DNA of 64,000 nt from Xenophilus sp. Marseille-Q4582 (GTDB lineage: Bacteria > Pseudomonadota > Gammaproteobacteria > Burkholderiales > Burkholderiaceae_C). The notes beneath the pieces are model-generated. The model was not told where the DNA came from. It did no database searches and saw nothing but the letters and a program-made list of their open reading frames with translations. The stretch spans positions 558,001 through 622,000 of the forward strand of contig NZ_CAKAKO010000004.1 of the NCBI RefSeq assembly GCF_916700565.1, given 5' to 3'. Shown here in pieces: positions 43,720 to 52,640 of this stretch (position 1 is the first letter of the stretch; each line of letters begins with the position of its first letter). Made by a program: the position numbers and the translations under genes.

Positions 43720-44385
43720 TCAGTGACGGTCGGCCCCGGTCTCCTGCAGCATGCCCTTGTGCTCGATGAAGCGCACCACTTCCTGCAGGCCGGCCAGGGT
43801 CTTGAGATTGGTCATGACGAAAGGCTTGTCCTTGCGCATGCGCCGGGTGTCCGCCTCCATCACGCCCAGGTCGGCGCCCACGTGCGGCGCGAGATCGGTC
43901 TTGTTGATGACGAACAGGTCGCTCTTGGTGATGCCGGGCCCGCCCTTGCGCGGAATCTTCTCGCCGGCCGCCACGTCGATCACGTAGATCGTGAGGTCGC
44001 TCAGCTCCGGGCTGAAGGTGGCGGCCAGGTTGTCGCCGCCGCTTTCGACGAACACTACGTCGGCATCCGGGAACGCCTCGAGCATGCGGTCGATGGCCTC
44101 GAGGTTGATCGAGGCATCTTCCCGGATGGCGGTGTGCGGGCAGCCGCCCGTTTCCACGCCCATGATGCGCTCGGCGGGCAGGGCGCCCGCCACGGTGAGC
44201 AGGCGCTGGTCTTCCTTGGTGTAGATGTCGTTGGTGATCGCGATCAGGTCGTAGCGATCGCGCATGGCTTTGCAGAGCATTTCCAGCAGGGTGGTCTTGC
44301 CGGAACCGACGGGGCCGCCGATGCCCACGCGCAAGGGGGGCAGCTTCTTGGTGCGGTTCGGGAGGGTGTGCAAGGCAGCGCTCAT
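43720..44385 (-). CDS. ureG: Urease accessory GTPase UreG
   Basis: SIMIBI GTPase of 221 residues that drives nickel delivery to urease. The P-loop is [10 protein letters not shown] near residue 23; the Ni/Zn-binding CPH motif is in [18 protein letters not shown] context ([13 protein letters not shown]), and the NKTD base-recognition motif is present. It is the last gene of the operon, 9 bp after ureF, and is followed by a strong terminator. Confidence 0.97.
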
Positions 44386-44394
44386 GGGATGGGT

Positions 44395-45132
44395 TCAGCT
44401 TCTGAAGAGTCGTGAGTATTGGTGCTCATGCTGGGCCGACAGGATGGCCAGCAGGGGCGAGAAGGCCTGGCGCGTGTCGTCGGTGCGGGCCAGCGCGTCT
44501 TCCACGGCCGCCGGCATCTCGCGTGCCAGCTGGGCCAGCATGCGTTGGCCGGCACTCTGACCCAGCGGCACGGCTTTGACCGCGGCGGCCGTCATGTTCT
44601 CGGCCCAGCCGAAGGCGAAGGCCAGGCAGGCGCTGCGCACATCGGCGCCGCTGCGGGCGGCGGCAAATGCAAAGGCGATGGGGTAGGTGACGACGGCCAG
44701 GTCCTGGAAACAGGTTGCGGCGTCCTCATGATGCAGCTTGAGCCATTCGACGAAGGAGCGCCCCATCTGCTCGGTCTGCAGCCGGAACTCGGCCGATTCG
44801 CGGGTGGCCAGCACCCAGCCGTTCAGTGTCCGGATGCGTGCGGCATCCTGCGCCCGCCAGGCGGGCACGGCCGCAGCCAGCACGGCCAGGTCCCCGGGAG
44901 CAAGGCTCAGATGCAGTTGCTGCACCAGCCATCGGGTGGCGCTGGCCTCATCCGCGGCCAGGTCTTGATCGACGGCGGCTTCGAGCCCTTCGGAGTAGGA
45001 GAAGCCGCCGATGGGCAGGGCCGGCGACGCGAGCCAGATCAGCTGCAGCAGGCCATGCGCGGAAAGCGCGTGGCCGGGGTCTGCGGGGCACTTTTCAGTG
45101 GGAATGGCCAGGGTGGCCGTGTCCGTGGTCAT
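44395..45132 (-). CDS. ureF: Urease accessory protein UreF
   Basis: All-helical chaperone of 245 residues that links UreG to the apo-urease-UreD complex. The family blocks [24 protein letters not shown] and [21 protein letters not shown] are present. The ATG at 45132 ([11 protein letters not shown]) lies inside the 3' end of ureE, an overlap of 38 bp. The frame stays open upstream through the ureE histidine codons, but that part reads as low-complexity sequence and is not UreF-like. Because UreF works through UreD, the missing ureD is notable. Confidence 0.93.
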
Positions 45133-45715
45133 GATCGTGGTGCTGCGTGTGGCCGTGGATGTGGGCGTGGGCGGTGCCGTGGCCATGAGGCGCAGGGGCT
45201 TCATGCGAGTGGCCGCCGTGCCCGTGCGCGTGCGCATGTCCATGCCCTTGGCCGTGCCCATCGCCGCCATAGGCCCCGCCTTCGGGTTCGAAGCCTTCTT
45301 CGGTCTGCGTCACGATCAGGTGCATCGCGCGCAGCATGTCGGCCAGCACATGGTCGGGCTCGATCTTGAGGTGGTCGGGTTGCAGCTCGATGGGCACATG
45401 GCGGTTGCCCAGGTGGTAGGCCGCGCGGGTCAGGTCGAAGGGCGTGCCGTGCCGCGTGCAGTGCGTGATGCGCAGCACGGCCTGCGGCGCCGCGATCACG
45501 CGCACCAGCGAGCCGTCTTCCACCACCAGCACGTCGCCGCCGCGCACCACGGTGCCGCGTGGCAGGAACACCCCGAGCGCACGACCCAGTGAATCCGTGG
45601 CGTCGAAGCGGCTCTTCTGCCGCACATCCCAGTCGAGTTCGACCGTGGCGGCGCGCTTGAGCAGCACGGGCGCCAGGCCGCGGCCCTGGGGCATGAGTTT
45701 GTTGATGGTCAGCAT
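45095..45715 (-). CDS. ureE: Urease nickel metallochaperone UreE with very long His-rich tail
   Basis: Nickel-binding chaperone of 206 residues. The N-terminal peptide-binding domain and central metal domain ([41 protein letters not shown]) match UreE. The last ~54 residues contain about 22 histidines interspersed with G, A and D, longer than the tail of Klebsiella UreE, so strong nickel storage is likely. It overlaps ureF by 38 bp. It is separated from ureC by a GNAT gene. Confidence 0.95.
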
Positions 45716-46281: not shown

Positions 46282-48000
46282 TCAGAACAGGAAATAGAGC
46301 TGCGCCATGGGCAGCACCGTGGCGGGCTGGCAGCTCAGCAGCACGCCGTCGGCGCGCACGGCATAGGTCTGGTGGTCGATCTCCATCACGGGCGTGAGCC
46401 CGTTGTGGACCAGGTGCTGCTTGCGCACGCCGCGAATGCCCTTCACGGCGCTCAGCGTCTTCGCCAGCCCGAAGCGCTCCTGGATGCCCGCGGCCAGGCC
46501 GGCCTGCGAGACGAAGGTGAGCGAGCTGCGCGCGGTGGCTCCACCGAAGGCCCCGAACATCGGCCGGTAGTGCACCGGCTGCGGCGTCGGGATGCTGGCG
46601 TTCGGATCGCCCATGGCGGCCATGGCGATGCTGCCGCCCTTGAGGATGCAGAAGGGCTTCACGCCGAAGAAGGCCGGCTTCCACAGCACGATGTCGGCCC
46701 ACTTGCCCACTTCGAGGCTGCCCACTTCGTGGCTGATGCCGTGCGAGATCGCCGGGTTGATCGTGTATTTGGCCACGTAGCGCTTGGCGCGGAAGTTGTC
46801 GTTGCGCGCGCTGTCTTCCGGCAGCGCGCCCCGCTGCGCCTTCATCTTGTGGGCTGTCTGCCAGGTGCGCAGGATGACCTCGCCCACGCGGCCCATGGCC
46901 TGCGAGTCGCTGCTCATCATGCTGATGGCGCCCATGTCGTGCAGGATGTCCTCGGCCGCGATGGTCTCCTTGCGGATGCGCGATTCGGCGAAGGCCAGGT
47001 CCTCGGCGATGGCGGCGTCGAGGTGATGGCACACCATGAGCATGTCGACATGCTCGTCGAGCGTGTTCACGGTGTAGGGCATGGTCGGGTTGGTGGAAGA
47101 GGGCAGGAAATTCGACTCCCCGACCACGCGCAGGATGTCGGGGGCATGGCCGCCGCCCGCGCCTTCGGTGTGGAAGGCGCACAGCGAGCGGCCCTTGGTG
47201 GCGGCGATCGTGTCCTCCACGAAGCCCGACTCGTTCAGCGTGTCGGAGTGGATCGCCACCTGCGTGTCGGTCTCCTCCGCCACCGTCAGGCACTGGTCGA
47301 TGGCCGAGGGCGTGGTGCCCCAGTCCTCATGCAGCTTCAGGCCGATCACGCCGGCCTCGATCTGCTCGCGCAGCGCCTCGGGCCGGCTCGCGTTGCCCTT
47401 GCCCAGGAAGCCCAGGTTCATCGGGAAGGCGTCGGCCGCCTGCAGCATGCGCTCGATGTGCCAGGGGCCGGGCGTGCAGGTGGTGGCGAAGGTGCCGGTG
47501 GCCGGGCCGGTGCCGCCGCCGAGCATCGTGGTCACGCCGCTGGCCAGCGCTTCCTCGATCTGCTGCGGGCAGATGAAGTGGATGTGGCTGTCGATGCCGC
47601 CGGCCGTGACGATGTGGCCTTCGGCCGCGATGATCTCCGTGCCCGGGCCGATGACGATGTCCACGCCCGGCTGCGTGTCGGGATTGCCCGCCTTGCCGAT
47701 GGCCGCGATGCGGCCGTCCTTGAGGCCGATGTCGGCCTTCACGATGCCCCAGTGGTCGAGGATCAGCGCGTTGGTCAGCACCGTGTCCATGGCGCCCGCG
47801 GCGCGCGTGCGCTGGCTCTGCGCCATGCCGTCACGGATGGTCTTGCCGCCGCCGAACTTCACTTCTTCGCCGTAGCCGCCGGCGCGCAGCGTGTAGTCCT
47901 CCTCGACCTCGATCACCAGGCCGGTGTCGGCCAGGCGCACGCGGTCGCCCACGGTGGGGCCGAAGATTTCCGCATAGGCGCGGCGCGAGATGGTGGCCAT
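46282..48000 (-). CDS. ureC: Urease alpha subunit (catalytic)
   Basis: Nickel amidohydrolase subunit of 572 residues that hydrolyses urea to ammonia and carbamate. All active-site residues are present at the Klebsiella positions plus five: H139, H141, the carbamylated lysine K222, H224, H251, H277, D365, and the flap residues C324 and H325 (MVCHHLD). Nothing suggests inactivation. It lies 76 bp downstream of ureB. Confidence 0.98.
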
Positions 48001-48076: not shown

Positions 48077-48382
48077 CTACAGCGGACCCTGCACCTGCGC
48101 GCGAAAGCCGAACACGACCCGGTCGCCGCCCAGGTCCACCAGTTCCACGGTGCGCTGCTGGCCGGGCTCGAAGCGCACGGCGGTGCCGGAGGCGATGTTC
48201 AGCCGCATGCCGCGCGCGGCCTGGCGGTCGAAATCCAGCGCGGCGTTGGTTTCGGCGAAGTGATAGTGCGAGCCCACCTGGATGGGCCGGTCCGACGCAT
48301 TGCGCACCAGCAGCACGCGTGTGCCGCGCCCGGGGTTCAGCGCATGGTCGCCGGCGTCGACGAGCAGTTCGCCCGGAATCAT
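48077..48382 (-). CDS. ureB: Urease beta subunit
   Basis: Structural subunit of urease (101 residues). [19 protein letters not shown] and [19 protein letters not shown] are the family signatures. Its ATG overlaps the stop of the preceding 58-codon gene (ATGA), so translation is coupled to that small gene rather than to ureA directly. Confidence 0.97.
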
Positions 48383-48555
48383 TTGCGGCCGGCCCAGAGC
48401 GCGATGCCGACCGCGACCGCCAGCGCGATGAAGATGGCCGCGTCGGTGGCATGCCAGTGGGGGCCGCTGAGGCCATGGCCTTCATGGGCCAGGGCCGGCA
48501 CGGCCACGGTCGCGGCCAGGGTGGCGAGGGAGCGGCGAAGCAGGTTCCTTGTCAT
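48379..48555 (-). CDS. Small exported/membrane protein (58 aa) between ureA and ureB
   Basis: A short open frame starting [19 protein letters not shown]. It encodes a signal-peptide-like N-terminus ending PALAHEGHG, a histidine-containing [15 protein letters not shown] stretch (24-38) and one transmembrane helix ([15 protein letters not shown], about 40-54), ending AGRK. The stop codon overlaps the ureB start by the ATGA arrangement, strong evidence that it is translated. The HEGHG start recalls the mature N-terminus of HupE/UreJ nickel permeases, but the protein is far too short to be one. It may bind nickel at the periplasmic face; this is inference. Confidence 0.72.
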
Positions 48556-48657: not shown

Positions 48658-48960
48658 TCACGCAATGGGTTGATGCACGGTGACCAGCTTGGTGCCATCG
48701 GGGAAGGTGGCTTCGACCTGGATGTCCGGGATCATCTCGGGCACGCCGTCCATCACGTCGGCACGGGCCAGCACTTCGCGGCCCTCGCTCATCAGCTGGG
48801 CCACGGTCTTGCCGTCGCGCGCGCCTTCCATCACGGCCGCCGAGATCAGCGCCACCGCTTCGGGGTAGTTGAGCTTGAGGCCGCGTGCCTTGCGCCGCTC
48901 GGCCAGCAGGGCGGCGGTGAAGATCAGCAGCTTGTCCTTCTCTCGGGGTGTGAGTTCCAT
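48658..48960 (-). CDS. ureA: Urease gamma subunit
   Basis: Smallest structural urease subunit (100 residues). [23 protein letters not shown] and [23 protein letters not shown] are diagnostic. The ATG at 48960 gives the normal length. It is the first gene of the operon; the start lies about 20 bases downstream of the transcription start predicted from a sigma-54-type promoter. No ureD gene lies upstream; a divergent sensor gene does. Confidence 0.97.
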
Positions 48961-48989
48961 GGCGTGATGAGTGAGTCGCCTTGACATGA

Positions 48990-49021
48990 TGCAACACTCG
49001 TGCCGTGGCACGGGTGTTGCA
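48990..49021. promoter_or_regulatory. Back-to-back sigma-54 promoters in one palindrome
   Basis: A 30-bp imperfect palindrome (48991-49020; 14-base arms with one mismatch, 2-base centre). On the plus strand TGGCACGGGTGTTGCA (49006-49021) matches the sigma-54 consensus TGGCACG-N4-TTGCW at every position. On the minus strand CGGCACGAGTGTTGCA (49005-48990) matches except for the first T. The two face opposite ways, toward the permease-kinase gene and toward ureA. Predicted starts are about 49032 (plus) and 48979 (minus). An NtrC-type activator site was not identified. Confidence 0.72.
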
Positions 49022-49031
49022 CCACAAAGGT

Positions 49032-52636
<3,605 letters not shown>

Positions 52637-52640
<4 letters not shown>

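Follow-up and report, generated by a model that had tools for sequence, protein, structure and literature searches.

Predicted back-to-back sigma-54 promoters between the urease genes and a transporter-kinase gene with a putatively leaderless GTG start

In Xenophilus sp. Marseille-Q4582, two sigma-54 boxes stand back to back between the urease cluster and the gene of a transporter-like hybrid histidine kinase, and the GTG start codon of the kinase lies at the transcription start predicted from one of them. We think that this part of the window (the whole stretch of 64,000 nucleotides analysed here) serves as a compact region of divergent sigma-54 promoters, from which the urease operon and the transporter-kinase/regulator operon would be activated together, with a leaderless kinase message that begins at its own GTG. 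The probability that we give to this explanation as a whole is about 0.7. Compared with an earlier note made on the same DNA, the divergent promoters and the hint of a leaderless transcript find support, whereas a near-complete overlap of the boxes and a competitive switch as their purpose do not.

Taken singly, none of the elements is new: urease genes under sigma-54, transporter-kinases that have LuxR-type partners, and leaderless messages are all known. Among the matches listed from the open-access literature, the passages available describe neither sigma-54 messages that are leaderless at GUG nor abutting back-to-back sigma-54 boxes. If our explanation is true, sigma-54, which depends on an activator, feeds leaderless messages into translation at GUG, which reportedly works poorly as a start in E. 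coli, and a transporter-kinase family whose membrane part has no Pfam name would be in charge of urea use. Besides, the relatives would offer a natural series of about 100 promoter pairs, from zero spacing to separated and with or without an operator, in which the competition of back-to-back sigma-54 holoenzymes could be measured.

The two boxes and the genes that they face

The plus-strand box, TGGCACGGGTGTTGCA, is perfect, and the minus-strand box, CGGCACGAGTGTTGCA, has one mismatch; read on the plus strand, the whole element is TGCAACACTCGTGCCG followed by TGGCACGGGTGTTGCA (Table 1). On both strands the GG and GC doublets lie 10 bp apart in the context TGGCAYR-N4-TTGCW. A perfect box on one strand and a near-perfect one on the other had been claimed in the earlier note, which proposed a scan of both strands with a sigma-54 matrix. 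When a simple sigma-54 score is applied to every position of the 64-kb window on both strands, the two boxes rank first (12/12) and second (11/12), the Markov-1 expectation per window being 0.05 sites at score 12 and about 1 at 11 or more. Sites with up to two mismatches to TGGCACG-N4-TTGCA number 8 in the window versus 10.6 expected, so one loose sigma-54 match alone carries little meaning.

The note had described the boxes as overlapping almost completely. The boxes and their positions are real, but the description is wrong: they are two abutting 16-bp blocks whose recognition elements have no base pair in common, with the -24 ends meeting and the boxes pointing away from each other, toward ureA and toward the transporter-histidine-kinase gene. 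The resulting 32-bp inverted repeat pairs at 14 of 16 positions by our own count and occurs a single time in the 5.54-Mb genome at up to three mismatches. Taken as a single strand of DNA, it gives a better fold than any of 200 shuffled versions (z -4.1).

To the left of the boxes the gene order is ureA, ureB, ureC, a GNAT acetyltransferase gene, ureE, ureF and ureG. No ureD is present in this cluster, and the only UreD match of the genome is about 300 kb off (G000:C4:908521-909135). Between ureA and ureB, at 48390-48555, there is only a 55-codon stretch without a family match; in Mitsuaria a full HupE/UreJ gene occupies this place, and the stretch is perhaps a remnant of such a gene.

On the other side, the kinase combines HisKA, HATPase and REC domains with a LuxR-type partner, as in CrbS/CrbR, in which a membrane transporter-like domain is likewise fused to a hybrid kinase (PMC5715377). 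In the account of that paper, CrbS has SLC5 and STAC domains and serves acetate use, whereas the window kinase sits beside urea genes and its N-terminal 556 amino acids have no Pfam match at E≤1, SLC5 included, and no PDB sequence match. The AlphaFold model of the membrane domain has a mean pLDDT of 45.8 and was set aside. One stand-alone homolog of the membrane part, with 46% identity and annotated as allantoin permease, adjoins urease genes in Acinetobacter; from this annotated homolog and our own reading, an NCS1/allantoin-type domain is a candidate identity. Further homologs of the membrane part adjoin urtABCDE and formamidase genes on a Klebsiella plasmid and on a Paraburkholderia plasmid, and in Mitsuaria one adjoins ureA in the same layout as in the window. 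Since its homologs adjoin urea and urease genes, the transporter-kinase system appears tied to urea. Among the matches listed, the closest named record by the kinase is Xenophilus arseniciresistens (96% in the membrane part).

Table 1. Positions of the genes and predicted promoter elements in the window
Feature	Position	Strand	Remarks
ureG, ureF, ureE accessory genes	43720..45670	-	ureE PF05194/PF02814, ureF PF01730, ureG PF02492 and TIGR00101
ureC, urease alpha subunit	46282..48000	-	572-aa ORF; named from reading the translation, not from a family search
ureB, urease beta subunit	48077..48382	-	PF00699
ureA, urease gamma subunit	48658..48960	-	first gene of the urease cluster; PF00547, 1.6e-48; ATG 48960
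Sigma-54 box of the predicted ureA promoter	48990..49005	-	-24 GG 49004-49003, -12 GC 48992-48991; predicted +1 48979
Sigma-54 box of the predicted transporter-kinase promoter	49006..49021	+	-24 GG 49007-49008, -12 GC 49019-49020; predicted +1 49032
Inverted repeat, 32 bp, from zero spacing of both boxes	48990..49021	.	unique in the genome
Hybrid sensor kinase, membrane transporter-like domain fused to HisKA-HATPase-REC	49032..52640	+	GTG at predicted +1; about 1,200 codons
Response regulator, REC, linker and LuxR-type (GerE) helix-turn-helix	52637..53665	+	4-base overlap with the kinase stop if the chosen ATG is right

Conservation and spacing of the boxes

The membrane part of the kinase has a match in at least 169 of 299 family genomes. 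For comparison, the 90 best-ranked places of the family-genome matches were taken together with the best 80 loci listed in the genome collection, and this sample leans to close relatives because only best-ranked loci were taken. From the 171 loci examined, window included, 29 without an adjacent divergent ureA start and 6 duplicate regions were dropped before counting, which leaves 142 loci with the kinase divergent from ureA and 136 distinct intergenic regions. The cut-off on the box score was ≥9 on the kinase side and ≥9.5 on the ureA side of a pair, and ≥9.5 for the counts of start codons and Shine-Dalgarno cores. In this sample of mostly close relatives, a kinase-side box is found in 127 of the 136 regions (the other 9 have none at score ≥9), and the divergent pair in 118; from the composition of the window, a strand of 150 bp would hold about 0.08 such boxes (score ≥9) by chance. 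Five more distant loci adjacent to ureA, kept outside the counts, have a strong pair in three cases (L189, L190 and L191), a weak one in L193 and none in L194. The earlier note had named a lack of conservation of the GG/GC doublets in relatives as evidence against itself. Its proposal has passed this test, and the idea of divergent sigma-54 promoters for urease and sensor is supported by the same pairs.

The spacing of the boxes is from -1 to +1 bp in 19 of the 118 pairs and from 4 to 212 bp in the remaining 99. Among named records, zero spacing is found in Xenophilus and in parts of Variovorax and Ramlibacter, and the state has changed at least six times on a DNA tree of 86 loci, a quick tree in which 28 of 83 inner branches have less than 80% support. 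These figures bear on the switch put forward in the note, according to which the boxes are so close that only one sigma-54 holoenzyme binds and the expression of urease and of the sensor is mutually exclusive. The footprint of a sigma-54 closed complex reaches about -34. At zero spacing the -24 GG doublets are set 3-5 bp apart, and such a footprint would run into the other box; moreover, the tight arrangement recurs across the tree. Steric competition between two holoenzymes is thus plausible, at zero spacing only. However, the same genes have separated boxes in most pairs, so that exclusion cannot be the general purpose and an obligatory switch between urease and sensor is not supported. Exclusion on one DNA copy alone does not make a switch either, and the joint sensing and use of urea would favour co-expression. 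We consider such a switch unlikely, and prefer to regard both operons as co-activated.

Neither does the palindrome seem to have a purpose of its own. The four central bases agree at two or fewer positions in 16 of the 19 zero-spacing loci; as most of these relatives do not have the near-perfect palindrome, it is a consequence of zero spacing and no conserved site in its own right. It could otherwise be thought of as the site of a dimeric regulator, such as the LuxR-type response regulator, with the likeness to sigma-54 boxes being secondary. The 32-bp inverted repeat would suit such a protein, and the non-consensus bases of the two boxes of the window agree at 3 of 4 positions, while random pairing of boxes gives 3 or more in 3% of cases. 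Yet relatives keep each box and set the boxes apart, the centre is asymmetric in most zero-spacing loci, and the probable operator is a different repeat, TACGCC-N4-GGCGYA, which makes a regulator site in the palindrome highly improbable. Quasi-palindrome correction was also considered as the origin of the near-perfect symmetry and is a weak candidate.

The operator-like repeat, searched as TACGCC-N4-GGCGTA with up to three mismatches, is found in 42 of 78 spacers of at least 16 bp (16 of 42 clusters), where shuffling expects 1.6. The 40 tighter pairs, searched together with their boxes and short flanks, have none (1.4 expected). In 35 of the 42 spacers the repeat starts 2-6 bp from the ureA-side box, and in 27 the distance between its end and the kinase-side box is 4-5, 15 or 26 bp, in 11-bp steps. 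It resembles the CrbR ACTU motif, an imperfect inverted repeat such as TACGACGTCGGTCGAAT (PMC5715377). From its sequence and place, we think that TACGCC-N4-GGCGYA is probably the operator of the LuxR-type response regulator, missing in the zero-spacing lineages. In the window's own genome the repeat has 5 palindromic places versus 47 in the control, from which no inference is drawn. The length of the spacers has a best period of 11.2 bp (compared with a jitter null, p is about 0.001; 8 spacers longer than 64 bp were left out of this test alone). This phasing is only suggestive, as the period was looked for once the data were known and loci that are related do not count as independent cases.

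Second copies of the kinase offer a separate observation. Upstream of 10 of the 14 second copies fetched (L175-L188) there is TACGTCAATCAACGTA, in 8 exactly and in 2 as one-base variants, and in most of the copies with this repeat there is also a GG-N10-GC box that includes TTCTTGC. The Klebsiella, Paraburkholderia and Cupriavidus homologs, too, have similar repeats upstream.

Activation of the two operons

The genome has one rpoN gene, enhancer-binding proteins and an NtrC above the curated cut-off. The earlier note stated that sigma-54 and NtrC control urease in other bacteria, and this agrees with what is reported for Burkholderia cenocepacia, in which the urease genes drop in an ntrC mutant (PMC5491218). 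Urease genes also appear in a survey of sigma-54, chiefly for alpha- and beta-proteobacteria (PMC12316311). The window is like B. cenocepacia H111 in having the urease operon behind a sigma-54 promoter, here a predicted one, and NtrC in the genome; it differs from what is described for H111 (PMC5491218) in that this promoter lies back to back with a second one for the transporter-kinase, and its dependence on NtrC is putative.

As for the binding sites of the activator, upstream NtrC sites were to be looked for according to the note. Over 600 bp on either side in 127 loci, neither TGCACC-N5-GGTGCA nor a looser version of it reveals a conserved NtrC-like site at a constant distance upstream. 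The hits that recur fall on the -12/+1 region or lie 230-250 bp downstream, in coding sequence that is itself conserved; an enhancer site may yet be present within coding sequence. One of these places is the NtrC-like dyad TGCACC-N5-GGTGTG at 49018-49034, which overlaps the -12 element and the start codon. Of the 23 hits with up to two mismatches to TGCACC-N5-GGTGCA in the 0-50 bp bin of the 127 loci, 21 are this dyad in the same place, and it may be a by-product of the TGCA and the GTG.

In the mechanism that we propose, one box would drive the urease operon and the box at its back the transporter-sensor-kinase together with the LuxR-type response regulator. A single enhancer-binding protein, most probably NtrC acting when nitrogen is limiting, would open both promoters; with a shared activator both operons would rise together and not in an either/or manner. 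The leaderless GUG start would let the membrane sensor be translated sparingly and keep it scarce. In many relatives, the probable operator of the regulator lies between the two promoters. In the lineage of the window, as in some Variovorax and Ramlibacter, the boxes abut and no operator stands between them, the palindrome being a by-product.

The start of the kinase and urease messages

In the sigma-54 numbering the GG is at -24 and the GC at -12, as given in PMC4842269. The C of the -12 GC is 49020 and the +1 is 12 nt on, so the predicted start, 49032, is the G of the in-frame GTG of the kinase, as the earlier note had predicted. Its remark that the transcript might be leaderless, made in passing, has turned out to be the best upheld of its claims, on account of the conserved position of the start codon at the predicted +1. 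Of 124 loci whose box scores at least 9.5, 51 (14 of 58 clusters) have an in-frame GTG exactly 12 nt after the C and 18 (11 of 58 clusters) have one 13 nt after it, while every other offset from 2 to 45 nt has at most 3 in-frame GTGs. All GTGs at these two offsets are in frame, though the distance to the conserved start of the protein varies. Because of an in-frame stop, only one start is possible in 18 loci; it is 12-15 nt after the C in 14 of them and further down in 4. The start codons found 11-16 nt after the C are GTG in 76 loci, the window among them, ATG in 12 and TTG in 1. On the tree, 56 of the 86 loci have the near start and 30 have no start near +1, with at least four changes between the states; several loci without an adjacent ureA, such as L058, L069 and L078, have kept the near start.

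Of 76 loci with the near GTG, 5 have a 4-nt Shine-Dalgarno core ahead of it, compared with an expectation of 32% from shuffled sequence. The lack of this core is not diagnostic, because the leadered kinase group also lacks it (0 of 29, 8% expected).

It could also be thought that the kinase starts upstream, at a GTG or ATG within the -24 box, from an unseen sigma-70 promoter, and that the sigma-54 box acts as a roadblock or is silent. Such a codon is indeed in frame 15 nt before the C in 36 of 127 loci (21 + 15; in the window it is the GTG at 49005). Nevertheless, an in-frame stop 9 nt before the C rules this start out in L040, L050, L057, L073, L120 and L123 among others, and the bases between the box and the GTG are hardly conserved, only the first two being so in 14 cluster representatives. 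No sigma-70-type site is found in 48700-49300, a weak argument since shuffling expects none either. All in all, an upstream start is quite improbable, and judging from the position of the codon the kinase message is most likely leaderless, with its GTG as the predicted first codon.

Leaderless messages with the start codon at or within a few nucleotides of the 5' end, as predicted here, have been described for S. meliloti (PMC3616915), B. japonicum (PMC4842269) and C. metallidurans (PMC7563307). In S. meliloti, all 171 of 171 leaderless starts reported are AUG (PMC3616915), whereas the window kinase has GTG. In B. japonicum, the motif given for leaderless messages is RpoD-like (PMC4842269), unlike the sigma-54 box of the window, and the relatives of the window have mostly GUG at a 5' end that is only predicted. 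A review describes leaderless starts other than AUG as inefficient in E. coli, with GUG much less efficient there and more efficient in some actinobacteria (PMC9031893). The S. meliloti data and the low efficiency in E. coli speak against a leaderless start at GUG.

On the other side of the region, the predicted ureA leader of the window is 19 nt, from the +1 given by the -12 C at 48991 to the ATG. In the 118 pairs, the ATG of ureA is 13-18 nt from the C of the box in 26, 19-28 nt in none and 29 nt or more in 92, and this gap is what we would expect of messages that either have no leader or have one of sufficient length for ordinary initiation. A Shine-Dalgarno core is present in 8 of the 26 near-start ureA genes (21% expected), which counts against a leaderless ureA, and in 31 of the 92 with longer distances (15% expected).

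Taking both sides together, a wider proposal can be made, although with somewhat less than even confidence. In Comamonadaceae there might be a class of sigma-54 promoters in which +1 is the translation start. The urea sensor kinase would have leaderless messages that mostly begin with GUG, and ureA would have reached this state separately several times. The ureA-operator-kinase module would be kept in helical phase, with spacer steps of about 11 bp, and would repeatedly collapse by operator loss into abutting promoters with mutually exclusive holoenzymes.

A search for a box with a start codon 12 or 13 nt after the C in 120 family genomes gave 128 matches versus 30 in a backward control (hand-summed); since some of the matches are pilin genes in which an RTG falls there by chance, we do not generalize from this figure. 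Five other loci (L260, L274, L238, L250 and L236) combine a strict sigma-54 box with a start codon that follows the C by 12-13 nt, and from their translations the products read as GntR-type regulators, amino-acid-binding-like proteins and a NasT/AmiR-like regulator; these genes are candidates for further leaderless sigma-54 genes. In the window's own genome, at L198 and L032, strict sigma-54 boxes also precede a pilin-like gene and a nitrate-binding-protein-like gene, named by reading, whose nearest listed starts are 59 and 146-188 nt after the C.
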